A DNA stretch of 9,896 nucleotides from Dechloromonas sp. (GTDB taxonomy: Bacteria > Pseudomonadota > Gammaproteobacteria > Burkholderiales > Rhodocyclaceae), in the NCBI GenBank assembly GCA_017302355.1, contig JAFLDQ010000131.1, forward strand, positions 1 to 9,896, written 5' to 3'. The translations under genes were made by a program, and so were the position numbers. This document shows positions 1-8,934 of the stretch, one piece after another; the stretch's first letter is position 1, and every line of letters starts with the position of its first letter. The notes below the pieces were generated by a model, which ran no database searches, was not told the DNA's origin, and worked only from the letters and a program-made list of their open reading frames with translations.

Positions 1-1783
1 TGATGCCGTCGCCAACGAAGGCGATACGGGCGCCGTCGGCTTTCATGCGGGCGACCAGTTCGGCTTTCTGCTGGGGCAACAACTCGGCGTGAAACTCGTC
101 GATGCCCAGTTGCCGGGCGAGTTCCTCCGCCCGGTCCCGATGGTCGCCGGTGAGCATGACGATGCGCTGGATGCCCAGCGTGCGCAGACGATGCAGCGTC
201 TCGCGGCTGGCTGGACGGACTTCGTCCTTGAGCGCGATGATGCCGAGCAGCTTGCCTCCGAAACCGATATAGAGAAGCGTCTTCCCCTGCCGGAAAAGCG
301 TGTCCAGCCTGCTGCGATGACGGCCGATCGGCACACCTTCGTCTTCCTCGACGAAATGGCGCGAGCCGACGACGATGCGTTGGCCGTCGATCATGCTGGC
401 TACGCCATGGGCGGCAATGAACTCGACTTCCTTGTGATCGAAATGCCGGCCGTGATGTTTACGCGCTGCGTCGACGACGGCGAGCGCCAGGGGATGAAAG
501 TAGTGCTCCTCGACCGAGGCGGCGAGATCGATGATGTCGTTCGCCGAGTAGTGCGGGTCGAAGGCGATGGCGTCGGTCACGGCAAGCTGGCCGGAGGTCA
601 GCGTGCCGGTCTTGTCGAAAACGAAGGTGTCGGCGTTGGCCAGGCGTTCGACGGCATCGCCGCCCTTGAACAGGATGCCCTGCCGGCCGGCGCGGTGCAT
701 TCCCGCCTTGAACGCGACGGGGGTGGCCAGCTTGAGCGCGCAGGAATAGTCGGCCTGCAGCACCGCCGCGGCCCGCTGCCAGTCGCCGCTCAGCAGCCAG
801 GTGGCGCCGGCCAGCCCGAGCACGGCGGGCACCAGGCGGTCGGCGAGGCGCGCAGCGCCCAACTGGGACTGGCTCTTGGCCACCAGCGACTGTTCCACGT
901 AGTCGGCGATGCGGGCGGCCGCCGTGTTGCGGCCGACATGCTCGGCATAGACCCGCAGACGCCCCTCTTCGACGACGGTGCCGGAGAGGACCTTGTCGCC
1001 GCGCTTCCTGGCCACCGGCCGGCTCTCCCCGGTCATCGCCGATTCGTTGAGGATCGCTTCGCCGCCGAGGACCGTGCCGTCCACCGCCACGGTCGAGCCT
1101 GCGGCGACGATGACGGTCATGCCGACTTCGACGGCATCGCTTGCGATCTGCTGCTCCTGGCCATCGATCTCGACCCATACCCACCCCGTGTCGGGCCGCA
1201 GCAGCGCCTTGAGCAGTTCGTCGGAGCGCCGGGCGATCGATTGTTCAAGGTATTCCCCCAGGGCCAGCATGAAGCTCGTGGCGTTGGCGGCGGTGAAGTC
1301 GCGGCGGGCGGCGGAGATGGCAACTGCCAGGGCCTCGAGCACGTGTGACGTGATGCCTTCGTTGCGCAGATTCTCGACGGCCTCGGCAAAGACGGGGATG
1401 GCGACGGCCAGAGTCGCCGGCATCAGCAGGCTTTGCGGCACGAGCTGCTGGCCGACGAGCAAGGCGCCGCTGCTCATGACAGCCCACAGGCCGTCGTGGC
1501 GATCGATCCCTGCCTGCAGCCGCCCGGCGCCCGCAACATCCAGCTTGAGCAAGGAATCGCCCAGGGACTCGATGCTCGTCTCGGTCGGCTCGAAGTCGAC
1601 GGTCAGGGAACGGGCGACGGGGTTCAGCCGTGCGGCACAGACGCCATGCAGATTCCGCACGGCGCGAACCGTGCCGACGGGGTCGATCGGACCCGAGGCG
1701 CGATAGCGGAAGCGCACCCGCTCAGGCAGTTGGTGGACGGCCCGGACGGCGACGAACGGGCAAGCCGCGGCGGGCCTGTTCAC
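1..1783 (-). CDS. Heavy-metal P-type (P1B-like) ATPase, C-terminus beyond the window
   Basis: 594 codons are open from GTG 1783 to the left edge; the end of the gene lies outside. Residues 12-68 look like an HMA_2-type ferredoxin-like domain (QLPERVRF motif) without CxxC. Hydrophobic stretches follow at about 101-136 and 149-178, then the actuator domain with TGES at 251-254, two more membrane stretches near 317-332 and 338-358, the phosphorylation motif DKTGT with Asp390, an HP motif at 430-431, TGD at 545-547 and GDG at 591-593, where the hinge motif GDGxND would begin. The membrane metal site, normally CPC, reads Tyr346-Ser347-Cys348 before ALKLATP, so this is not a standard Cu or Zn/Cd ATPase. 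From memory, Ser-Cys variants occur in CtpC-like ATPases linked to Mn or Zn. The family pumps metal out of the cytoplasm using ATP; the metal here is unknown. GTG starts 2 nt after the upstream stop; its ribosome site is weak, so the exact start is less certain than the frame. Confidence 0.93.
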   Translation of the reverse strand, partial: MNRPAAACPFVAVRAVHQLPERVRFRYRASGPIDPVGTVRAVRNLHGVCAARLNPVARSLTVDFEPTETSIESLGDSLLKLDVAGAGRLQAGIDRHDGLWAVMSSGALLVGQQLVPQSLLMPATLAVAIPVFAEAVENLRNEGITSHVLEALAVAISAARRDFTAANATSFMLALGEYLEQSIARRSDELLKALLRPDTGWVWVEIDGQEQQIASDAVEVGMTVIVAAGSTVAVDGTVLGGEAILNESAMTGESRPVARKRGDKVLSGTVVEEGRLRVYAEHVGRNTAAARIADYVEQSLVAKSQSQLGAARLADRLVPAVLGLAGATWLLSGDWQRAAAVLQADYSCALKLATPVAFKAGMHRAGRQGILFKGGDAVERLANADTFVFDKTGTLTSGQLAVTDAIAFDPHYSANDIIDLAASVEEHYFHPLALAVVDAARKHHGRHFDHKEVEFIAAHGVASMIDGQRIVVGSRHFVEEDEGVPIGRHRSRLDTLFRQGKTLLYIGFGGKLLGIIALKDEVRPASRETLHRLRTLGIQRIVMLTGDHRDRAEELARQLGIDEFHAELLPQQKAELVARMKADGARIAFVGDGI

Positions 1784-1785
1784 GC

Positions 1786-2199
1786 TCAGCCCCGTGTTTC
1801 GGCCTCGACCTCGGCGCGGATGTCGGCCACCTGCTCCTTGATCTCCTCGAAGCCCCCGGCGATGCCGGCGTACAGCTTCATCGCGGACTTGAGCAGTTTG
1901 TTGCGCATTTCTTCGTCGCCCAGGACGTACACCGCGGCGGCGCCGATCAGGGCGCCGAGAACGAACTGCTCGGTGTGGCGTGAACCGACCATCCCCTGCA
2001 AGCCATTCAGGAAACCGCGGTCGGCGCCCGGCGTCCCGTTGACCATGTCGTTCCAGGCGTATTGGCCGAAGCCGGCGCCAGTGCCTGGGCCGCTGTTCAT
2101 CCCGCCCATGGCGCCGAATGCGCCTTGTCCATAGCCGGCTTCACCCCAGCCGGCGCCGGCGTGACCTGCGGACTGCTGCCTATGCTTCTTCTTTCCCAT
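1786..2199 (-). CDS. Gly-rich small membrane protein with YtxH/PacL-like layout
   Basis: A 137-aa protein of unknown function. Residues 1-9 are basic (KKKHR), 11-70 are rich in Gly, Ala, Met and aromatic residues and probably disordered, 78-94 form one membrane helix (QFVLGALIGAAAVYVL), and 95-135 form an amphipathic, Glu/Ala/Lys-rich helix. ATG 2199 is chosen because AAGGAG stands about 8 nt upstream, although the frame stays open much further. The start lies inside the end of the preceding gene, and the stop is 2 nt before the ATPase GTG, so translation is probably coupled. One TM helix plus a charged helix next to a P-type ATPase recalls the PacL/DUF1490 partners of mycobacterial CtpC. That comparison rests on layout only. 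A role as an ATPase scaffold or metal chaperone is inference. Confidence 0.85.
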   Translation of the reverse strand: MGKKKHRQQSAGHAGAGWGEAGYGQGAFGAMGGMNSGPGTGAGFGQYAWNDMVNGTPGADRGFLNGLQGMVGSRHTEQFVLGALIGAAAVYVLGDEEMRNKLLKSAMKLYAGIAGGFEEIKEQVADIRAEVEAETRG

Positions 2200-2518
2200 T
2201 TGCTTTCTCCTTCGCTGCCTGGTCTCGCAGCAGATGTTCAAAGGTTGCGACCGCCGCCAGGCCGATCGCGACGCCGGCCAGCGCCTGTCCGCTTTCGCTC
2301 CGCCGCCAGGCGCGCATCGCGTACGTCCCGGCCGCCAGCGCGCTGCCGCCCTGCATGGCGCAGCGCAACGTCCGGCGGTCGAGGCGGAGGCGGGCCGGCT
2401 GGTCCTGCACGGCACTCAGAATGCCGGTCGCGACGAAGCCGCGGATGAAGTCAGCGCCCACTTCACCACGCCCGGCCAGCGGTCGGGACGGCGTCACCAG
2501 CGGAAGTCGGCGACTCAT
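2180..2518 (-). CDS. Small hypothetical membrane protein
   Basis: A 112-aa protein that I do not recognise. The N-terminal 20 residues are basic and Pro-containing. A short hydrophobic segment lies at 23-37 (FIRGFVATGILSAV), then a likely helical hairpin at about 54-70 and 77-96 (GQALAGVAIGLAAVATF), then a charged Lys/Glu tail. ATG 2518 overlaps the previous gene's stop in an ATGA arrangement. The TAG stop at 2180-2182 lies 17 nt inside the next gene. This tight packing between an ATPase and two other small membrane proteins supports it as a real operon member, with a structural or assembly role at the membrane as the most I would infer. Confidence 0.75.
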   Translation of the reverse strand: MSRRLPLVTPSRPLAGRGEVGADFIRGFVATGILSAVQDQPARLRLDRRTLRCAMQGGSALAAGTYAMRAWRRSESGQALAGVAIGLAAVATFEHLLRDQAAKEKANGKEEA

Positions 2519-2877
2519 TCCGTTTCTCCGGCGACGGGTTCTGCGGGAGCTTCCCCGGCGCCGGGGGTCGCGTCCGCCTTGCGCGGGCGGGTAGCCTTTT
2601 TCGTCGCGGGTGCTGGCGCGGGCGCTTCTTCCGGTGTCGCGGCGTCGGGCGCGGCTTCGACGGCCGTCAACTTCTCGCGCATCGCCGCGCTCGAGGCTTC
2701 CAGGCGGGAGAGGCCGCTGACGGTTGCCTCGCGAATGCTGGTTCGGGCGCTTTCAAGAGTCTCCGAGGTCTTGGCCTTGGCATTCGCGAGGGTTTGCGAG
2801 GTCTTGCCGTTGCGCCACAGCTTGGCGGTGACGGCGCCGGTGACGAGGCCGGCGATGAATGGCAGAAGAGGCAGCAT
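2515..2877 (-). CDS. Small membrane-anchored coiled-coil protein (YtxH/PacL-like layout)
   Basis: A 120-aa protein with one N-terminal membrane helix (LLPFIAGLVTGAVTAKLW, residues 4-21). A Thr/Ser/Ala/Glu-rich amphipathic helix follows at 24-75, then a low-complexity Ala/Pro/Glu/Lys tail at 76-120 that is probably disordered. ATG 2877 follows the previous stop by 2 nt and has GGAGG about 9 nt upstream, which decides the start over the longer open frame. It resembles YtxH-type or DUF1490-type single-pass proteins in layout. Unlike PacL1 as I remember it, the tail shows no His/Asp metal-binding motif. Its place between a ferritin-like protein and a metal ATPase suggests a scaffold role; this is inference. 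Confidence 0.85.
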   Translation of the reverse strand: MLPLLPFIAGLVTGAVTAKLWRNGKTSQTLANAKAKTSETLESARTSIREATVSGLSRLEASSAAMREKLTAVEAAPDAATPEEAPAPAPATKKATRPRKADATPGAGEAPAEPVAGETE

Positions 2878-2879
2878 GA

Positions 2880-3578
2880 TCAATCCTCCATGGGTTGGGA
2901 AACGGGTTCCCGCTTGCGCAGGAAATGAACGGCGCCACCCCCCGCCACCATGCCGGCCAGCATCGCCGGGTGAGCGGCCCGCAGCAGCGAGCCGGCCAGC
3001 CCGAAGGCGCTGTGCTGGCTGGCGAGCAGGGAGAAGCCGTGCTCGAGGATATTGGTCAGCGGGCCATGGCTGACATAGGCCTGGCTGGCCGGGATGCCCT
3101 GTGCCGCATGGTAGCCTTCGCGTGCCAGCGCCAGTTGCAGGGCGTGCTGGAAGGCCGGGAGGTGGTTGTTCAGCGAGGCCGATTGCAGGCTGCTGAAAGT
3201 CTGCCGCACATCCCGGGCGGCAACGTGGGGCAGAAGGTAGCGATAAAGATGCACATTGGCCATCTCGCCGGCGACGGCGCGCTCCAGATTGGCGCGCCAA
3301 CCGGGCGACACCGTCGTTTCGGCAGGGAAGGGATCGAGCGGCCGGGGAATGCCGTAGCGCTGGCACAGCCGGTCGAGCGCCGCGACATGCCGTTCCTCGG
3401 CGCGCGCGATGCTGGCGAATGGCGGTTGTTGCCCGAAGGCTTCGGCCACCCGGCGATAGAAGGCCCGCGCCGCGTATTCATCATAGAGCGCGATGCGCAC
3501 GGCCTGATGCAGGACGGGAAACGGCGCCACCGCCTGGAGGGTGCGGCTGCGCAGGATGGCTTCGTCATAGTTGGCCAC
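2880..3578 (-). CDS. DUF2202-like ferritin-fold protein with C-terminal membrane anchor
   Basis: A 232-aa protein with the four-helix, diiron pattern of DUF2202 ferritin-like proteins. Likely metal ligands are Glu34 (DEYAARAFY), Glu61 and His64 (EERHVAALDRL), Glu105 (GEMANVHLYRYLLP) and His139 (NNHLPAFQHAL). A hydrophobic, Gly-rich stretch at 205-219 followed by RKRE suggests a C-terminal membrane anchor, which soluble ferritin-like proteins do not need. GTG 3578 is preferred because GAGGAGG sits 6 nt upstream; longer in-frame starts run into the preceding gene. It overlaps that gene by 14 nt. The family binds iron or other metals, but the reaction of DUF2202 proteins is not established to my knowledge. 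Next to a metal ATPase it could hand over, oxidise or sense metal at the membrane (inference). Confidence 0.88.
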   Translation of the reverse strand: MANYDEAILRSRTLQAVAPFPVLHQAVRIALYDEYAARAFYRRVAEAFGQQPPFASIARAEERHVAALDRLCQRYGIPRPLDPFPAETTVSPGWRANLERAVAGEMANVHLYRYLLPHVAARDVRQTFSSLQSASLNNHLPAFQHALQLALAREGYHAAQGIPASQAYVSHGPLTNILEHGFSLLASQHSAFGLAGSLLRAAHPAMLAGMVAGGGAVHFLRKREPVSQPMED

Positions 3579-3960
3579 GACGTACCTCCTCGTACTTGTA
3601 TTCGATGATGCCAAGCAGGGCATGCGCGGCGGGTGTCGCCCGGTTGGCCAGAAGATCGCCCCAGGCATGATCGGGGATGATCGCCCGGTCGTATTCGATG
3701 GTGCAGGAACGTGCCAGCTTGTTGATGCGGATGTCGCGCACCCCGCGAATGATGCCCACGGTGCCGGACAGTCCCCGTTCGCCGAGATCGCGCAGGGCGG
3801 GATCGTTCAGAACGGCGGAATCGACCTTGAAGCGGATGCGCCCGGGAATCTGGTGGGCGATGCGCAAGTAAGCGGCAACAAGGGCGATCACGGACGCCAT
3901 GTCGGCTGGCCGGGCCTGGGCCGGGAAAACCATGGCTTCCAGCGTACTGCCGAGCATCAT
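3565..3960 (-). CDS. HMA_2-like domain protein without CxxC
   Basis: A 131-aa protein, first gene of the ATPase operon. Residues 31-105 resemble the ferredoxin-like HMA_2 fold: a first strand with HQIPGRIRFKV at 36-46, a helix around 53-62, a turn where the true HMA metal loop would be, and a strand pair with IRINKLARSCTIEYD at 77-91. There is no CxxC; the only cysteine is Cys86. The N-terminal 30 residues are hydrophobic and may form a short membrane or signal-like segment. ATG 3960 is chosen because GGAG lies 5 nt upstream. Met21 is possible but has no ribosome site. It shares the PGRIR motif with the protein at 4228-4677 and a variant with the ATPase N-terminus. Protein-protein docking instead of metal capture is plausible (inference). 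Confidence 0.82.
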   Translation of the reverse strand: MMLGSTLEAMVFPAQARPADMASVIALVAAYLRIAHQIPGRIRFKVDSAVLNDPALRDLGERGLSGTVGIIRGVRDIRINKLARSCTIEYDRAIIPDHAWGDLLANRATPAAHALLGIIEYKYEEVRRGQL

Positions 3961-3979
3961 GACTCCAGTTGAAAGTGAC

Positions 3980-4013
3980 TGGCTGGCTGTCGCGATGCGG
4001 ATGGCTGGCTGTC
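3980..4013. repeat. 12-bp direct repeat in operon leader
   Basis: TGGCTGGCTGTC occurs at 3980-3991 and again at 4002-4013, a 22-bp period or about two helical turns. It lies in the predicted 5' leader of the ATPase operon, between the promoter and the first start codon. It could be a binding site for a regulator or a chance product of TGGC-rich sequence. Confidence 0.5.
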
Positions 4014-4015
4014 TC

Positions 4016-4034
4016 GGGCTTCAGGGGAAAGCCC
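4016..4034 (-). other. Hairpin at start of ATPase-operon leader
   Basis: GGGCTT (4016-4021) and AAGCCC (4029-4034) form a perfect 6-bp stem with a 7-nt loop. It would sit at or just after the predicted transcription start near 4035 and could protect the 5' end of the mRNA. No T-run follows, so it is not a terminator. Confidence 0.4.
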
Positions 4035-4041
4035 TCTCGAC

Positions 4042-4082
4042 AGCGTAGCATTCCGGCGTGTCGAGTGCTTGATCTTCGTCAA
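4042..4082 (-). promoter_or_regulatory. FNR/Dnr-type class II promoter of the ATPase operon
   Basis: TTGAT-CTTC-GTCAA at 4069-4082 matches the FNR/CRP-family consensus TTGAT-N4-ATCAA at 9 of the 10 specified bases, 13 of 14 positions if the spacer is ignored. On the minus strand an extended -10, TGC-TACGCT, lies at 4042-4050. It is placed so that the box centre falls near -41.5 of a start at about 4035, the classical class II activator geometry. This predicts induction under low oxygen or by nitric oxide through an Fnr, Anr or Dnr protein, giving a leader of about 75 nt before ATG 3960. Confidence 0.68.
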
Positions 4083-4227
4083 ATCCGGAGCAGTTGGTGG
4101 CTGCCGGCGGTCGCCGCAGCAGACGTTCGCTGCCCGCATGCCGCGTCGTTCGTCCGGATCGAGAGGCAGGGACTCCGGGAAAGTACCGGGAAGGTGGCCA
4201 GCGCGGCGTGGCCGGCCTTGGCGCCGG
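4083..4227. other. Gene-free stretch after the lone HMA_2 gene
   Basis: The 145 bp between the stop at 4228 and the FNR-type box hold no gene that I can support. There is a weak GGCCA/TGGCC inverted repeat near 4196-4215 but no T-run, so no intrinsic terminator is evident, and read-through from the upstream gene into the ATPase operon cannot be excluded. Confidence 0.4.
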
Positions 4228-4677
4228 TTAGCGGAAAATGCCGTGACGATGCATGCCCAGATGAACGCCGAGTCCGGCCACGAACAGGGCGCCGGCGATG
4301 GCGTGGCCGCGCTTCTGGCCGGTGGCGAGCAGCGCGAACGAGGTGGCGAGGCTGCCCAACATGCCGATCTTGGCGAGCCGGTTGACTTTCCGGCGGCGGG
4401 ATGTTCCGGTGGGCGCCGGTGTGGCCAGCAAGCGGTCGAGGGTGGCGTCGACCAGGATTTCCAGTTTCTCGACCGCTAGCCGACGCGGATCGAAATGCAG
4501 GACGAGACTGCCGGCGCGCGGGTTGGCGCTGGTTTCCAGGATGCCTTCGTGTTCGCCCAGGGCTGCCTCCAGATCGGCGAGGCGGCCGGGGTTGCGCAGG
4601 GCGCGATCGCGGATGCGGATGCGCCCCGGAGTGGCGGAAACGACGCGGCGGACGGCTGGGCTGGATGATCCGGACAT
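4228..4677 (-). CDS. HMA_2-domain membrane protein without CxxC
   Basis: A 149-aa protein. Residues 10-66 resemble an HMA_2 ferredoxin-like domain: VVSATPGRIRIRD at 12-24, a helix around 32-42, then SANPRAGSLVLHFDP at 50-64. The CxxC of metal-binding HMA domains is absent. A basic linker (SRRRK) leads to two membrane helices at about 104-119 and 124-141, and the end reads HLGMHRHGIFR with three closely spaced histidines. ATG 4675-4677 is the likely start, though the ribosome site is weak. It lies 85 nt after exbD and 267 nt before the ATPase operon, so it could belong to the iron operon's tail or be a separate unit. It may be a membrane partner of the P-type ATPase (inference). Confidence 0.83.
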   Translation of the reverse strand: MSGSSSPAVRRVVSATPGRIRIRDRALRNPGRLADLEAALGEHEGILETSANPRAGSLVLHFDPRRLAVEKLEILVDATLDRLLATPAPTGTSRRRKVNRLAKIGMLGSLATSFALLATGQKRGHAIAGALFVAGLGVHLGMHRHGIFR

Positions 4678-4703
4678 GGCGGGCGATCTCGTGTTCCAGG
4701 GCG

Positions 4704-4748
4704 AACCTGCCCCCTTTTTCTGCTGCGACTGGCTGGCGCGGGCAGGTT
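4704..4748 (-). other. Inverted repeat downstream of exbD
   Basis: AACCTGCCC (4704-4712) and GGGCAGGTT (4740-4748) are perfect 9-bp arms around a 27-nt loop, just after the exbD stop. There is no T-run on the minus-strand side, so it is not a standard intrinsic terminator. It could stabilise the 3' end of the operon mRNA or mark the boundary to the HMA_2 gene. Confidence 0.45.
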
Positions 4749-4762
4749 GTGAAAGCTTCGGG

Positions 4763-5188
4763 TCAGTTGGGCGCGCTTCCCGGCTGGGTGACGAAGCCGA
4801 TCCTGCTCAGGCCGGCGCGGCGGGCGGCGCTCATGGCGTCGGCGACAATCTCGTAGCGGGTGCTGCGGTCGGCCTTGAGATGCATCTCGACGTTGGCGTC
4901 ACGGCGGACCGCCTCGCGGAAGCGGCTTTCCAGTTCCCCACGGTCGACCGCCTCGGAACCGACGAAAACGCGGTTGTCGCCGTCGATGCTGACCTGCAGG
5001 GTCAGCCGCCGGTCTTCCGTCGGGACGCTTGCGGCGCGCGGCAGTTCCACCCTGACCGAGTGCGTCATCAGCGGCGCGGTGATGATGAAGATGATGAGCA
5101 GCACCAGCATCACGTCGACCAGCGGCGTCGTGTTGATTTCCGCCATCGGCGCCTGGGCGCCGGGGGAGTTGAAGCTGCCGATCGCCAT
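4763..5188 (-). CDS. exbD: ExbD, TonB energy-transducing subunit
   Basis: A 141-aa protein of normal ExbD length. It works with ExbB as a proton channel in the inner membrane and drives TonB. Residues 1-20 are the short cytoplasmic end. The single membrane helix is TTPLVDVMLVLLIIFIITAP, with the essential proton-carrying aspartate at Asp25, and the rest is the periplasmic domain (from about residue 45) with the usual alternating strands. Its ATG follows the exbB stop directly (TAAATG), with GGAGG about 8 nt upstream, so translation is coupled. The protein ends in a short polar tail (PGSAPN). Confidence 0.97.
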   Translation of the reverse strand: MAIGSFNSPGAQAPMAEINTTPLVDVMLVLLIIFIITAPLMTHSVRVELPRAASVPTEDRRLTLQVSIDGDNRVFVGSEAVDRGELESRFREAVRRDANVEMHLKADRSTRYEIVADAMSAARRAGLSRIGFVTQPGSAPN

Positions 5189-5932
5189 TTATGCGGCCTC
5201 CGCGGCGGCGCGGGCGCGCATCGGGTGGATCTGCGCGCTGTTGGCGACGAAGGGCTTGCCGATCGTGAAGAAGGCGTGCAGGTCGTGGGCGAAGGCATCG
5301 AGATCGGCGAGCAGCACGCGGTTGGCGCGGGTGAAGGCGTTGTAGGCGAAGACGGCGGGCAGGGCGACGGCGAGGCCGGCGGCGGTCATGATCAGCGCTT
5401 CGCCGACCGGGCCGGCGACCTTTTCCAGTGCCGCCTGACCGGAGAGGCCGATGGCGACAAGTGCATGGTAAATGCCCCAGACGGTGCCGAACAGGCCGAC
5501 GAAGGGGGCGGTGGCGCCGGTGGTGGCGAGCAGGGTGAGGCCGTTTTCCATGCCGGCCTGCGTGCTCGAGAGCTGCTGGCGTAGGGCGCGTTCCATTTGT
5601 TCGGCCGGGTCGAAGCGGGAGGCAAGTCGGCCGGTGACGGCCTCGCATTCATGGTTGCAGCAGTTGGCCTGCTCCGCGAGCTGGGCGTAGGGGCTTTCGG
5701 TATCGGCGGCGCGCAGGTGTTCGATGCCTTCGGCCACCGTGCCGGCCGCCCAGAAGCTGCCGAGGGCACGGGCGGAACGGCGCATGGTCCACCAGTCCCA
5801 GGTCTTGGCGAGGATCAGATACCAGCTGGCGATCGACATCAGCGCGAGGACCACGGCGACGCTATGGGAAACGGTGTCGCCGGCGGCCCACAGGTGGGCG
5901 AAGCCGAAGGCGTTTTGGGTAGTTTCGTTCAT
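5189..5932 (-). CDS. exbB: ExbB, TonB system proton-channel subunit
   Basis: A 247-aa inner-membrane protein of the MotA/TolQ/ExbB family, which forms the oligomer around ExbD. Membrane helices lie at about 23-43, 131-155 (TLLATTGATAPFVGLFGTVW, the family signature) and 177-200 (ALIMTAAGLAVALPAVFAYN). The large cytoplasmic loop between the first two holds a cysteine-histidine cluster, CCNHEC at 91-96, which I do not remember from standard ExbB proteins. The start at ATG 5932 lies 2 nt after the tonB stop, with GGAG upstream. The Ala-rich end (RARAAAEAA) runs straight into the exbD start. Confidence 0.97.
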   Translation of the reverse strand: MNETTQNAFGFAHLWAAGDTVSHSVAVVLALMSIASWYLILAKTWDWWTMRRSARALGSFWAAGTVAEGIEHLRAADTESPYAQLAEQANCCNHECEAVTGRLASRFDPAEQMERALRQQLSSTQAGMENGLTLLATTGATAPFVGLFGTVWGIYHALVAIGLSGQAALEKVAGPVGEALIMTAAGLAVALPAVFAYNAFTRANRVLLADLDAFAHDLHAFFTIGKPFVANSAQIHPMRARAAAEAA

Positions 5933-5934
5933 GC

Positions 5935-6573
5935 TTATTGCTCCAGTTTGAAGACGATGGGAACCAGAACCCAGCTCTGGACGGCGCTGTCGCCGCGCTT
6001 GGCCGGGATGAATTTCCAGTGTTTTACGGTGTTCACCGCAGATTCATCGAGCCGCTGGCTGCCCGAGCTGCTGCGGATCTCGACCTGATCGGCGCCGCCC
6101 TGCGGATTGACCGAGACGCGCAGGATGACCTTGCCCTCTTCGCCCATGCGCCGCGACAGTGGCGGGTAGGGCGGCGCCGGGTTTTTCAGGTAATCGGCAT
6201 CGAAACGGGCCTGGACGACCGGCGCTTCGGCAGGTGGCGCCGGTGGCGCAGGCTTGACGTCGGGTGGCGAGGCGACCGGTGCATTCGCGATGGCGACCTG
6301 GCTTTGTGTTGCCTCGATCACCGGTGTCGGGGTCGGGCGGGGTTGCGACTTCTGGAAGACGGGCTGCGGCTTGGTGACCGGCAGCGGCTTGGCTTCCGGC
6401 GGCTTGATTTCGGCGGGCTGGACAAGATCGACGATCAGCGGCATTTCCATGATCTGCGGAACGACCGTTTTGGCAGCGATGACGATGGCGATGACTGCCG
6501 CGTGCAGGCCGATGACGACCATGAGCAGGCCGCTGCGGCGTGAGGCGGAGGGGGATGACAGGGCGTAACTCAT
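5935..6573 (-). CDS. tonB: TonB, periplasm-spanning energy transducer
   Basis: A 212-aa protein. Residues 15-33 form the N-terminal membrane anchor with His24 in the position of the conserved TonB histidine (GLHAAV). Residues 52-118 are the Pro/Lys-rich periplasmic spacer with KP and PAPP runs. Residues 124-210 form the TonB C-terminal domain: DADYLKNPAPPYPPLSRR, then GKVILRVSVNPQG, then AVNTVKHWKF and a final hydrophobic strand. This domain contacts the TonB box of outer-membrane receptors for siderophores and haem. It is second in the hemP operon, 132 nt after hemP. The ribosome site before ATG 6573 is weak, and I see no better in-frame alternative. Confidence 0.96.
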   Translation of the reverse strand: MSYALSSPSASRRSGLLMVVIGLHAAVIAIVIAAKTVVPQIMEMPLIVDLVQPAEIKPPEAKPLPVTKPQPVFQKSQPRPTPTPVIEATQSQVAIANAPVASPPDVKPAPPAPPAEAPVVQARFDADYLKNPAPPYPPLSRRMGEEGKVILRVSVNPQGGADQVEIRSSSGSQRLDESAVNTVKHWKFIPAKRGDSAVQSWVLVPIVFKLEQ

Positions 6574-6705: not shown

Positions 6706-6876
6706 TTATTTGGTCAGGATCAGCTTGTTTTCGCGCGTTACGCGCAGGATGTAACGCTGGCCACCGTGTTCGATCTCGACGGCGTTGGCACCGCGCAGGA
6801 TCTCAGTGCTGTCGATACGGGGGCGGGGCGGGTTGAGCGCGGCTGGCGGGGTGATCGGGTGCGTTTGAGTCATCAT
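6706..6876 (-). CDS. hemP: HemP/HmuP-like hemin uptake protein
   Basis: A 56-aa protein. The C-terminal half carries the HemP signature: a short segment with SxEIL/LRG (residues 23-29), EIEHGGQRYILRVTRENKLILTK at 34-56, with the family's closing ILTK. HemP/HmuP proteins help activate haem-uptake genes, and some are reported as regulators that bind DNA. The N-terminal 20 residues are Pro-rich and variable. Two ATG codons stand in a row (6874-6876 and 6871-6873), and neither has a clear ribosome site, so the first is taken by convention. It is the first gene of the hemP-tonB-exbB-exbD operon, preceded by a promoter overlapped by two Fur-like boxes. It is too short to show up by length alone. 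Confidence 0.93.
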   Translation of the reverse strand: MMTQTHPITPPAALNPPRPRIDSTEILRGANAVEIEHGGQRYILRVTRENKLILTK

Positions 6877-6909: not shown

Positions 6910-6937
6910 TTGTGATGTTAATGAGAATCTTTGTCAA
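6909..6937 (-). promoter_or_regulatory. hemP promoter
   Basis: On the minus strand TTGACA (6932-6937, perfect -35) is followed after 17 nt by CACAAT (6909-6914, 4 of 6 to TATAAT). The predicted start is near 6902, giving a leader of about 26 nt that is pyrimidine-rich and without a ribosome site. The promoter overlaps the last codons of the DUF2325 gene (stop at 6918-6920), and both Fur-like boxes overlie it. Confidence 0.75.
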
Positions 6938-7682
6938 CTAGGGCGTCGGCGTGATCCGGCAAGGCCGGTACGCCTTCGCACAAGCGGCTGGCAGACTGGA
7001 TGGCGCGCTCGAAGCCCGAGGCGCCGCTTGTCTTGACGAACATGCACTGCTTGCCGGTCCGCTTGCACTGCTCTTTGACCCGCCAGTAGGCGTTGTGGCT
7101 GATGCAGCCGGTCTGGCAGATGACCAGGTCGGCGGCGGCCAGCGCGCTGTCGATGCGGTGCAGGCTTTCTTCCAGTCCGCCATCGTGATGCAGGAACCGG
7201 CCGCCGCTGCGTTCGACAACCTGTCGGTAGGCATCGATGGCGCCGGAGCGGCCGCCGACACAGAGGACGCATTTGCCGCCAAGATCAGGCGCTCCGCCCG
7301 GATGGGCCGGCTCGGCAGGGTGGGCGTGCAATTGCAACTCGGTTTCCAGCAGGGCGTTGCGGCGACGTTCCCGCTGCAGGGCTTCCTCGAGCTGGCTGCT
7401 GCGCGCCGTGAGCGCGACATTCACGGCTTCGGCATCGGTCGCGCGGCGGGCCAGCATTTGCCGGTCTTTCATGTCGGGCAGGCTGTTCTGCAGTTGTTCG
7501 AGTTGACCATTCAGCGCCGCTAGGCGCGCATCCTTGCCGGCGGAGTCGGCCTGTAAGTCGATGAGCCGCCGTATCAGGCCCTGGACCTCACGGGCATGTT
7601 CGTGACGCAGACGGTTCAGGGCTTCGCGGGCATCGGCAAGCGCCCGGGCTTGTTCTGCGTGTTCTTCGCGCAGGCGCTTCAA
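6918..7682 (-). CDS. DUF2325 protein, C-terminal part after an in-frame amber
   Basis: 254 aa from a TTG at 7682. Residues 1-118 form a long coiled coil rich in Glu, Arg, Leu and Gln. Residues 136-228 are the DUF2325 domain: KCVLCVGGRSG at 136-146, HHDGGLEES near 166-174, then a Cys pattern CQTGCISHN and later Cys residues in KEQCKRTGKQC. The function of DUF2325 is unknown; the cysteines suggest metal or redox binding (inference). It lies in the same frame as the ORF at 7722-8231, separated only by one TAG and 13 sense codons. The TTG start has no ribosome site, so this piece is probably the second half of one 437-codon gene. The last codons overlap the hemP promoter. Confidence 0.85.
   Translation of the reverse strand: MKRLREEHAEQARALADAREALNRLRHEHAREVQGLIRRLIDLQADSAGKDARLAALNGQLEQLQNSLPDMKDRQMLARRATDAEAVNVALTARSSQLEEALQRERRRNALLETELQLHAHPAEPAHPGGAPDLGGKCVLCVGGRSGAIDAYRQVVERSGGRFLHHDGGLEESLHRIDSALAAADLVICQTGCISHNAYWRVKEQCKRTGKQCMFVKTSGASGFERAIQSASRLCEGVPALPDHADALVDKDSH
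6922..6936 (-). promoter_or_regulatory. Fur-like box 1 of hemP
   Basis: TGAGAATCTTTGTCA agrees with TGAGAATnATTCTCA at 12 of 14 positions, and the wider 19-mer at 6917-6935 agrees with GATAATGATAATCATTATC at 15 of 19. It overlaps the -35 hexamer TTGACA, so Fur binding here would block RNA polymerase when iron is plentiful. Confidence 0.78.
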
Positions 7683-7721: not shown

Positions 7722-7724
7722 CTA
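7722..7724 (-). other. In-frame amber codon splitting the DUF2325 gene
   Basis: TAG is the only stop between ATG 8231 and TAA 6918-6920 in a frame of 437 codons. The frame is kept on both sides and both sides carry family-like sequence. It could be a true nonsense mutation, a sequencing error, or a site of read-through. Confidence 0.85.
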
Positions 7725-8231
7725 GACCATGTGGATGTCGCCATAGACCTCGTGTTCCAGCGTGCTGTCGCAGGCCGGATGACTCCAGGTGGCCCAGAGC
7801 GCGCCGGCAATAGTGCTGCCATCGCGACAGGCAGCACGCCAGAGGGCGCGCAGTTCAGCCGTATCGCGGGTCGCAGAAAACTTGCGGATTTCAGCAGCAT
7901 GGCGTTTCTCAAGGTGCTTGTGCAGCAACTCGGCGAGGCGGCTTCGGTTGTCGCAGTTGCCGACAGCGGTGGTGTGCAGGACGAAATCCGAGGTGTCGCG
8001 CGGGAATTCCATGACCTTGGCCATCAGGGCACGCAACTCCTGAACATCGAAGCAGGTGCCGATGATGGGGCAATGGCATTTGTGCGCGACTTCCCACAGC
8101 TTTCGCCGGCGGGAGCTTGCGGCGGGGGCTGCGGTAAACCGTGAAATCGGGCCAATTTCGGGTGGCCTGTCGGTTTGCGGCTTGCGGCCGATGAAGGCGC
8201 CGCCGGCGACGTGAAAGGGTATGTCGGACAT
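7722..8231 (-). CDS. N-terminal part of the DUF2325 protein, cut by an amber codon
   Basis: 169 aa from ATG 8231, with AAGGAG 6 nt upstream, to TAG 7722-7724. A variable leader is followed by a Cys/His cluster HKCHCPIIGTC at 50-60, a helical middle (RSRLAELLHKHLEKR at 97-110 is strongly amphipathic) and SHPACD at 150-155, ending GDIHMV. From memory, longer DUF2325 proteins of betaproteobacteria have this region fused to the coiled coil and read on as DIHM followed by a hydrophobic residue and QHQ. Here the sequence after the stop is HQLGG. One CAG-to-TAG change would therefore explain the break. The Cys/His residues may bind metal (inference). The gene ends a Fur-type operon. Confidence 0.82.
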   Translation of the reverse strand: MSDIPFHVAGGAFIGRKPQTDRPPEIGPISRFTAAPAASSRRRKLWEVAHKCHCPIIGTCFDVQELRALMAKVMEFPRDTSDFVLHTTAVGNCDNRSRLAELLHKHLEKRHAAEIRKFSATRDTAELRALWRAACRDGSTIAGALWATWSHPACDSTLEHEVYGDIHMV

Positions 8232-8321: not shown

Positions 8322-8744
8322 TCAGCTGGCCTGCGGGTTGTCGCCCAGGTCGTGCAGGTGTCGGAGTGCGACGTCGCGCTCCTTGGCGAGGCGTTCGCAT
8401 TCACGGTGGGCGGCGCACAGGGTCCGGTCGAGGAACCACAGGCGTTGACTGGCATCGCGCAGGCGGTCGTTTTCGTCCTGCAAGGCCAGCAGGCGCTGCG
8501 CCATCGCCGTCATGGCGACACCTGATTCAAGTTCCTGAAGGCGAGCCCGCAACTGCCGGTTGTGTTCGTCGAGGCGCAACATTTCATTGGTCAGCGCGAC
8601 AATCTTGCGCGCGGCCAGGCTGGCGGCACGTTTCTGCATTTGCCGGGACTGCCGCAAGCTTTGCCGCAGCAGGGTGTTTTCGTCGACCAGGCTGGCGACG
8701 CTTTCCTGTTCGATCAGCGAGCGGTCCTTAAGCGGGGCAAGCAT
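8322..8744 (-). CDS. Small coiled-coil protein with Cys-His motif
   Basis: A 140-aa protein, almost entirely helical, with heptad-like Leu spacing at about 17-72 and 82-105. A CAAHREC motif at 110-116 (Cys110, His113, Cys116) could bind a metal ion or form a disulfide. ATG 8744 is chosen because a near-perfect AAGGAGGGAG ribosome site lies upstream; the frame is open further but conflicts with the preceding gene. The start overlaps the end of the 68-aa gene by 17 nt. I do not recognise a named family. Its helices and those of the DUF2325 protein may pair (inference). Confidence 0.85.
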   Translation of the reverse strand: MLAPLKDRSLIEQESVASLVDENTLLRQSLRQSRQMQKRAASLAARKIVALTNEMLRLDEHNRQLRARLQELESGVAMTAMAQRLLALQDENDRLRDASQRLWFLDRTLCAAHRECERLAKERDVALRHLHDLGDNPQAS

Positions 8745-8934
8745 CGCGGTCTCCCTCCTTGTACAGGCGCTCGCTCGCCCGTTCGCAGAGACGACGGGTA
8801 TCGCTGTCGATGTCACGGGCGTCGCTGAGCGCATCAAGCAGGCGGGCGGCATTCAGCGCCGACTGGGCACAGCCGGTTTCTTCGTGGATCAGCATCAGGC
8901 TGAGCGCGCCGGCAAACAGGTCAGAGGGAGGCAT
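8728..8934 (-). CDS. Small hypothetical protein
   Basis: A 68-aa soluble, helical protein of unknown function with three cysteines (22, 50, 66). Residues 14-22 read MLIHEETGC, and a charged helix covers about 40-60 (RDIDSDTRRLCERASERLYK). ATG 8934 has GGAG about 8 nt upstream, and the coding frame runs to TAA at 8728-8730 inside the next gene's start region. Position second in a Fur-type operon suggests an iron-related role; no function can be named. Confidence 0.8.
   Translation of the reverse strand: MPPSDLFAGALSLMLIHEETGCAQSALNAARLLDALSDARDIDSDTRRLCERASERLYKEGDRDACPA

Follow-up and report, generated by a model that had tools for sequence, protein, structure and literature searches.

Which process brings a P1B-type metal ATPase, a ferritin-like protein and several small membrane proteins together in one tightly packed operon? 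This question is raised by the left part of a stretch of 9,896 nucleotides (nt) from Dechloromonas sp. (assembly GCA_017302355.1, contig JAFLDQ010000131.1), the whole of which is called the window here. The initial annotation described a membrane platform in which small helical proteins organise the ATPase, with a diiron protein to handle or oxidise the metal, and it knew of no described function for this combination. The latter statement does not hold, as six of the seven genes have their match in the fez (ferrosome) operon. We conclude, with a probability of about 0.88, that the window, from a relative of Azonexus and Rhodocyclus, carries a fez operon in a seven-gene form, in the order fezC-like, HMA-like, ferritin-like, S1, S2, S3 and fezB, where S1 to S3 are small membrane proteins. 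Iron storage, not efflux by a zinc-type platform, is most likely its task, because six genes match a Rhodopseudomonas-type cluster and the upstream gene resembles FezC. The system is largely known; its unusual part is a recurrent, slot-specific DUF2202 gene whose product has kept its tail and has often lost its diiron site.

Ferrosomes are membrane-bound iron stores and belong to the small number of bacterial organelles described with a lipid boundary. Six-gene fez operons have reportedly been found by Grant et al. in Rhodopseudomonas palustris and S. putrefaciens. R. palustris CGA009 reportedly uses six fez genes to make ferrosomes (PMC12016538), and the fez genes go down at low light together with iron genes (PMC6879726). 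FezB has been called a putative ferrous iron transporter and FezC binds heme b, with DUF4405-like heme sites proposed at a homodimer (PMC11334425 and its preprint PMC10979944). Ferrosomes of C. difficile require FezA and FezB, both of which are repressed by Fur (review PMC12574912). The excerpts of three other papers (PMC12748827, PMC12004955 and PMC12713370) hold general statements on ferrosomes only.

All seven genes lie on the minus strand. The FezC-like gene (4228-4677) encodes 149 amino acids (aa) with an HMA_2-type domain and a two-helix membrane hairpin. It is followed by the HMA_2-like small protein (3565-3960, 131 aa, without a Cys pair), the DUF2202 ferritin-like protein (2880-3578, 232 aa, GTG start), S1 (2515-2877, 120 aa, an N-terminal transmembrane helix with GxxxG and then an Ala/Pro-rich tail), S2 (2180-2518, 112 aa, a C-terminal transmembrane helix), S3 (1786-2199, 137 aa, YtxH-like with a GxxxG helix) and the FezB-like P1B-type ATPase (2-1783), of which the first 594 aa are present before the window edge cuts the gene. 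From the HMA gene to FezB, the successive junctions are a 14-nt overlap, a 2-nt gap, a 4-nt overlap, a 20-nt overlap and a 2-nt gap. The FezC-like gene is 267 nt from the HMA gene and 85 nt from exbD, on the strand common to the operon. The six frames from the HMA gene to the ATPase had been given by the initial annotation, and they are all present in the order, packing and spacing that it claimed. Its P-type ATPase call agrees with E1-E2_ATPase and Hydrolase matches in Pfam far above the cut-offs, and a single hydrophobic helix was found in each of S1, S2 and S3, which it had described as small transmembrane proteins. Two of its labels are right in part. The gene at 3565-3960, called HMA_2-like, does match HMA_2 (E=1.3e-5) but below the Pfam cut-off (25.6 vs. 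30 bits). The protein called DUF2202-like and membrane-anchored matches DUF2202 above the cut-off (E=1.2e-5, 25.6 bits vs. 22), but the hydrophobicity of its anchor is mild (best mean over 19 residues 1.22). The annotation ended the unit at 3960 and overlooked the FezC-like gene; judging from the sequence, the operon extends past this position and the gene at 4228-4677 belongs to it.

When the window was compared by BLAST with the locus of Azospirillum brasilense (L001), every operon gene was paired with a co-linear partner except the ferritin-like gene, which had none. The annotated order in Azospirillum is an HMA2-domain gene, a "cation transporter", two hypothetical genes, a YtxH-domain gene and a heavy-metal P-type ATPase, and the HMA_2-like gene at 3565-3960 occupies the slot of the "cation transporter". 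The six-gene co-linear cluster, which is the window set minus the ferritin-like gene, was found in Azospirillum, Rhodoblastus and Rhodopseudomonas sp. BR0M22. The identities to Azospirillum are 60% for FezB, 41% for the FezC-like protein (by alignment), 47% over 94 aa for the HMA protein and 60% over 65 aa for the YtxH-like S3. With BR0M22 (L035) they are 61% for FezB, 32% for FezC, 38% over 86 aa for the HMA protein, 44% over 71 aa for S1, 40% over 42 aa for S2 and 57% over 63 aa for S3. S2 has orthologues in both Azospirillum and Rhodopseudomonas, and the window FezB is 80% identical to Azonexus FezB. By these pairings, six window genes are orthologues of the genes in the six-gene cluster found in Rhodopseudomonas and Azospirillum, and they stand in the same order.

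When genomes were scanned with a part of the ATPase, 227 loci were confirmed, and the best 80 of these 227, nearest to the Azospirillum protein, were kept. Together with five plasmid loci and the window they form a set of 86 loci, whose genes were classified by profile searches; the set is a non-random sample in which several strains of one species are included. The exact order FezC-HMA-S1-S2-S3-FezB was present in 40 of the 86 loci (39 and, with an additional ATPase frame alongside, L020); another 13 have this order interrupted by the ferritin-like gene. S3 was assigned in all 86 loci, S1 in 81 and S2 in 74. The grouping exceeds chance, because identical genes in identical order recur in tens of other loci. 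The initial annotation had proposed checking whether the genes stay together, and this is borne out across the 86 loci as well as in the family and order samples of genomes given below. Two loci have a further P-type ATPase frame, on the other strand, next to the fez operon (L020, 9223-11757; L071, 10190-12940). A 133-kb Arcobacter plasmid (L003) carries a fez-like operon that includes the ferritin-like gene, with a small HMA-type gene directly before FezB and, after FezB, a small gene for a FezC-like hairpin. Less closely related is a fez-like cluster, apparently of six genes with one divergent, on a plasmid of Vibrio sp. THAF190c (L005, FezB 38% identical).

The window FezB scored 389 bits with TIGR01525 (cut-off 346). 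Its N-terminus is HMA-like without CxxC, and DKTGTLT is present. The sequence DYSCALKLATP stands where CPCAxxLATP is expected and aligned to the CPC of CopA and HMA4. Across the 86 loci this place is held by SCA (76), ACA (7), SCS (2) and ACP (1, L004); we take [SA]C in place of CPC to mark the P1B-6 group. A CxxC well upstream of DKTGTLT was found in 2 of the 82 FezB frames checked, a count that leaves out four rows without an exact DKTGTLT (L079, L077, L087 and L070). In a Sulfuricella metagenome-assembled genome (MAG; L069), the FezC membrane hairpin is fused to the C-terminus of a 902-aa FezB frame. This fusion suggests direct contact between FezB and FezC.

The FezC-like gene matched HMA_2 with E=3.8e-6 (27.4 bits, cut-off 30) and DUF4405 weakly (E=0.075). 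DUF4405 was also matched by 25 of 37 members of the FezC-like family at E<=0.1, again weakly (best 5.8e-4). H125 and H139 of the hairpin are invariant in the 37 aligned rows, and a hairpin of the H-x13-H type is present in 67 of the 69 FezC-assigned genes, the exceptions being L004 and L005. The predicted model has a ferredoxin-like domain and two long helices (predicted local distance difference test score, pLDDT, 77.7; predicted template modelling score, pTM, 0.52). A fold search with this model gave no match at E<=0.001, and mainly HMA domains and copper ATPases headed the list. Among 121 genomes of the taxonomic family FezB was found in 10. Each of these 10 has a FezC-type match that covers both the domain and the hairpin, in one case split into two adjacent pieces. 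The FezC-type matches in 7 other genomes of the family were weaker and partial (E 2e-10 or worse, frames of 389-1156 aa). This sample includes the centre genome G002, chosen for carrying both genes, and G003, known beforehand to carry both.

GxxxG is a classic helix-packing motif. It lies in the most hydrophobic 21-mer of S1 in 81 of 81 proteins (12.5 expected after segment shuffling) and of S3 in 86 of 86 (16.8 expected). No clear signal was seen in the same segment of S2 (21 of 74 vs. 14.1 expected) or of the ferritin-like protein (7 of 22 vs. 5.7 expected).

Of the 86 loci, 22 contain the ferritin-like gene, in every case in the slot from the HMA gene to S1; a second profile reproduced this count. 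By its position it is a recurrent insertion in one slot. Whole-genome searches of four bearer genomes gave one ferritin-like match each, within the fez locus, and none was found in the whole genome of Aeromonas, a non-bearer. Four of the 121 family genomes carry the gene, all of them among the 10 with FezB and at most 1.2 kb from it (hypergeometric 2.5e-5, centre genome included). In a sample of 399 genomes of the order, with the centre genome G002 again included and the top candidates scored per genome (up to 3 for FezB and up to 7 for the ferritin-like protein), FezB was found at E<=1e-120 in 7 and a ferritin-like match at E<=1e-15 in 11. The seven long ferritin-like matches fell in exactly the 7 FezB genomes, one of which is the centre, within 2.5 kb of FezB and on its strand; the four others cover only approximately residues 21-155. 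On a FezB tree of 82 of the 86 rows, presence of the ferritin-like gene changes at least 7 times. The tree omits the four rows without an exact DKTGTLT, of which L079 and L070 are ferritin bearers and L070 lacks FezC.

The predicted structure of the window's ferritin-like protein is a confident four-helix bundle (block pLDDT 93-98 over residues 11-150), and MJ0754 is nearest both among solved folds and in sequence. Five diiron-ligand positions are kept: E34, E61, H64, E105 and H139. The full pattern of a ferritin diiron centre is E, ExxH, E, ExxH. The window protein does not reach the six-ligand centre of ferritin and bacterioferritin, as a Leu stands three positions before H139. Among 56 homologues picked by similarity to the window protein, E34 is kept in 52, E61 in 47, H64 in 51, E105 in 55 and H139 in 54, and all five positions in 44. 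On these homologues rested the view that the diiron site is well conserved, which we abandoned since the 22 operon-linked copies contradict it. Among the latter, E34 is kept in 17, E61 in 11, H64 in 11, E105 in 15 and H139 in 13, with Arg at H64 in 10 copies and Gln at H139 in 8. Only 8 of the 22 copies have all five positions and 14 have lost at least one; five Aromatoleum/Azoarcus copies (L033, L034, L036, L048 and L052) keep one of the five. The ligands are largely lost and the tail GxxxG is kept also in L041, L046, L066, L083 and L089; the L046 gene is spread over two frames, and its aligned piece is gapped at E34. In the alignments the tail GxxxG (G209, G213) is present in 56 of 56 homologues and in 22 of 22 operon copies, and E154 and H157 are kept in 21 of 22 operon copies. 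With one or more ligand positions lost in 14 of the 22 operon copies, the protein cannot have iron chemistry at the usual site as its common role. These losses, taken together with the GxxxG found in every copy, lead us to read the shared role as probably structural, docking or membrane-linked. Only some copies may carry out iron chemistry, and the window copy, with all five positions kept, may bind iron. A diiron protein that handles or oxidises the metal, as first proposed, is thus possible in the window but not general.

Two other explanations of the ferritin-like gene accept the operon as fez. According to one, the protein works at the ferrosome membrane as an active diiron enzyme, either as a ferroxidase or as a shield against peroxide. 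Five ligand positions in the window copy, in 7 other operon copies and in 44 of the 56 similarity-picked homologues speak for an enzyme, as does a weak rubrerythrin match (E=6.8e-4, below the cut-off). All five ligands are also kept in 4 of 5 bearers without FezC vs. 4 of 17 with FezC (Fisher p=0.04), where two of the four belong to one genus. However, at least one position is lost in 14 of 22 copies, four of five are lost in the Aromatoleum/Azoarcus copies, the sixth ferritin ligand is absent from the window protein, and no rubredoxin domain was found with Pfam. We regard an enzyme of this kind as possible but doubtful. The same losses, the absence of the gene from 64 of the 86 loci and the at least 7 changes on the FezB tree could also indicate a passenger or decaying gene that moved along with the operon and has no function there. 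A passenger would hardly be expected to occupy the identical slot in 22 of 22 loci or to have the overlapping and 2-nt junctions seen in the window. The protein is not simply decaying, because G209 and G213 (22 of 22) and E154 and H157 (21 of 22) are kept, and we hold this explanation to be improbable.

A third alternative concerns the operon as a whole, namely a metal-efflux platform in the cell membrane like mycobacterial CtpC/PacL, in which a toxic divalent metal would leave the cell through an ATPase that the small proteins gather into clusters and supply. CtpC and PacL1 form a zinc efflux platform of a P1B ATPase with a small single-helix partner (PMC9374683). The broad architecture of the window is alike, and the N-terminal helix and Ala-rich tail of S1 are somewhat like PacL1 (PMC9374683). 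On the other hand, no DUF1490 match was found among the small proteins (Pfam, E<=1), S1 (2515-2877) contains no metal-binding His or Cys, the transmembrane motif is Y-S-C and not C-P-C, the gene set matches the Rhodopseudomonas-type cluster, and iron uptake genes adjoin. We therefore consider such an efflux platform very improbable. The data agree with the membrane platform of the initial annotation, in which small helical proteins join a P1B-type ATPase, but the CtpC/PacL analogy drawn with it fits poorly.

Several points weigh against the fez reading itself. Operons with proven ferrosomes are those of R. palustris, S. putrefaciens and D. magneticus, and the link to the first of them (RPA2333-2338) would run through the genus, the gene number and the resemblance of FezB and FezC. 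FezB was found at E<=1e-100 in only 5 of 16 Rhodopseudomonas genomes. Four of these FezBs are 70-71% identical to the Azospirillum protein and have S3, S2, S1 and HMA genes alongside; the fifth is a 43% relative. The Rhodopseudomonas stretches stop short of fezC, so that fezC was seen for BR0M22 only. The C-terminal part of the ATPase lies outside the window (594 aa here, 712 aa in the Azospirillum relative). A hairpin FezC was not found in 5 of the 22 ferritin-bearing cases and in 3 of the 64 others. The model positions the tail helix of the ferritin-like protein poorly (pLDDT about 50), and this helix has only mild hydrophobicity; the ligand losses described above belong here as well. A one-mismatch FNR-type box, such as that of the window (below), occurs in only 10 of 130 upstream stretches (approximately 1 expected; the window is included and the relatives are non-independent). 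Finally, every protein-protein contact in the scheme that follows is one that we infer.

In the fez reading, FezB would take Fe(II) from the cytosol and pump it into vesicles that derive from the inner membrane. The GxxxG helices of S1 and S3 may pack side by side and help to form or coat the vesicle, and FezC would pass electrons through the vesicle membrane and so set the redox state of the iron. The ferritin-like protein may be a coat component on the cytosolic side, held by its GxxxG tail helix, and copies that keep their ligands, such as that of the window, might additionally bind or oxidise Fe(II) beside the pump. Gene content, gene order, motifs, predicted folds and ligand loss are observations; that the metal is iron, the direction of transport, the formation of vesicles here and the membrane side are what we infer from them.

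We also considered whether the ferritin-like protein replaces FezC. No hairpin FezC was found in 5 of 22 bearers vs. 3 of 64 non-bearers (Fisher p=0.024), two of the three non-bearer loci being plasmid records whose chromosomes were outside the search; with the HMA_2-only genes of L004 and L005 still counted as FezC, the non-bearer count was 1 of 64 (p=0.004). In the ferritin-bearing clusters L070, L073, L083, L084 and L085 no hairpin-reaching FezC match was found genome-wide, in a search that covered only genomes with a FezC-less locus, with the window protein or A5 as query and with MAGs of unknown completeness. Replacement stays a speculation, since 17 of 22 bearers, the window included, keep FezC, and the FezB tree offers only 3 independent pairs with no significant association. 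As speculation, a ferritin fold may have been recruited as a membrane-bound building block of the organelle, with the glycine-zipper tail selected and the diiron site repeatedly lost; intact sites would take over the redox task of FezC, and FezC would then be lost in some lineages. We offer this scenario tentatively and think it rather unlikely.

The surroundings of the operon bear on its regulation. An FNR/Anr-type box TTGACGAAGATCAA with 1 mismatch lies at 4069-4082 on the minus strand, 109 nt upstream of the HMA gene, and a -10-like TACGCT at 4042-4047 would set it near -41; the motif and the -41 rule are those that we presume for FNR/Anr. It is the sole one-mismatch site in the window (0.10 expected) and such a site was present in 19 of 200 shuffles. 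No sigma-70-type promoter was found within 3900-4800, and Rfam gave no match in the window. Beyond the FezC-like gene, Pfam identified exbD (4763-5188), exbB (5189-5932), tonB (5935-6573) and hemP (6706-6876), all on the minus strand. These iron/heme uptake genes are transcribed towards the fezC-like gene. Upstream of hemP, a Fur-box-like sequence at 6917-6935 (minus strand) agrees at 14 of 19 positions with what we take to be the Fur-box consensus, and it beats the best site in each of 100 shuffles (maximum 13). A Fur-like box was seen at hemP only. The FNR-type and Fur-like boxes fit an anaerobic, iron-starvation setting, and the operon may be induced without oxygen, beside iron-starvation genes.

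A general link between hemP-tonB-exbBD and fez was also considered; the full set is near fez in just one other of the 80 genome loci, a Dechloromonas MAG (L070), where it lies on the far side of FezB. Near fez, exbD alone was found in L024 and hemP alone of the four in L058. A DUF2325 gene is at 6918-7682 of the window. DUF2325 is near fez in 8 of the 80 genome loci (BLAST, raw count) and is also annotated in the Arcobacter plasmid record; the loci are L003, L021, L025, L027, L058, L069, L070, L075 and L082. The frames at 7722-8231 and 8322-8852, between DUF2325 and DbpA, match no Pfam family above the cut-off, the latter having weak coiled-coil-type matches only.

With this operon, the range of probable ferrosomes would come to include members of the Rhodocyclales such as Azonexus, Aromatoleum and Azoarcus. 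Ferritin-like copies with intact and with lost ligands offer a natural comparison between an enzyme and a scaffold role at the ferrosome membrane. A ferritin-like gene in fez operons was not mentioned in the literature titles, abstract beginnings and passages covered, a scope outside which the primary ferrosome papers lie; in a search that combined ferrosome with genus names, the word "ferrosome" was absent among the matches listed.

Compared with known systems, the window is closest to the fez operon of R. palustris (RPA2333-2338), which has six genes, with a co-linear cluster of the FezB/FezC type in Rhodopseudomonas sp. BR0M22. The window differs in a seventh gene, the DUF2202 ferritin-like gene between the HMA gene and S1, and in that its fezC is followed by a gap of 267 nt holding an FNR-type box. 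The product of the seventh gene shares the four-helix bundle of DUF2202 (Pfam PF09968; MJ0754, PDB 3q4n/3q4r) and a DUF2202-like ligand layout, with ExxH in helix B, Glu in helix C and NH(L/M) in helix D. It differs in about 75 additional C-terminal residues, which include a GxxxG helix, and many operon copies lack the ligands. The FezC-like protein resembles the published FezC/DUF4405 cytochrome (PMC11334425) in a membrane hairpin whose conserved His would suit heme binding at the interface of a homodimer; it differs in its N-terminal HMA_2 domain, and the likeness is drawn from the published description and the weak DUF4405 match. With CtpC/PacL1 the window has in common a P1B ATPase and a small single-helix partner, whereas DUF1490 is lacking, S1 is devoid of His and Cys, and the transmembrane motif and the gene set differ.

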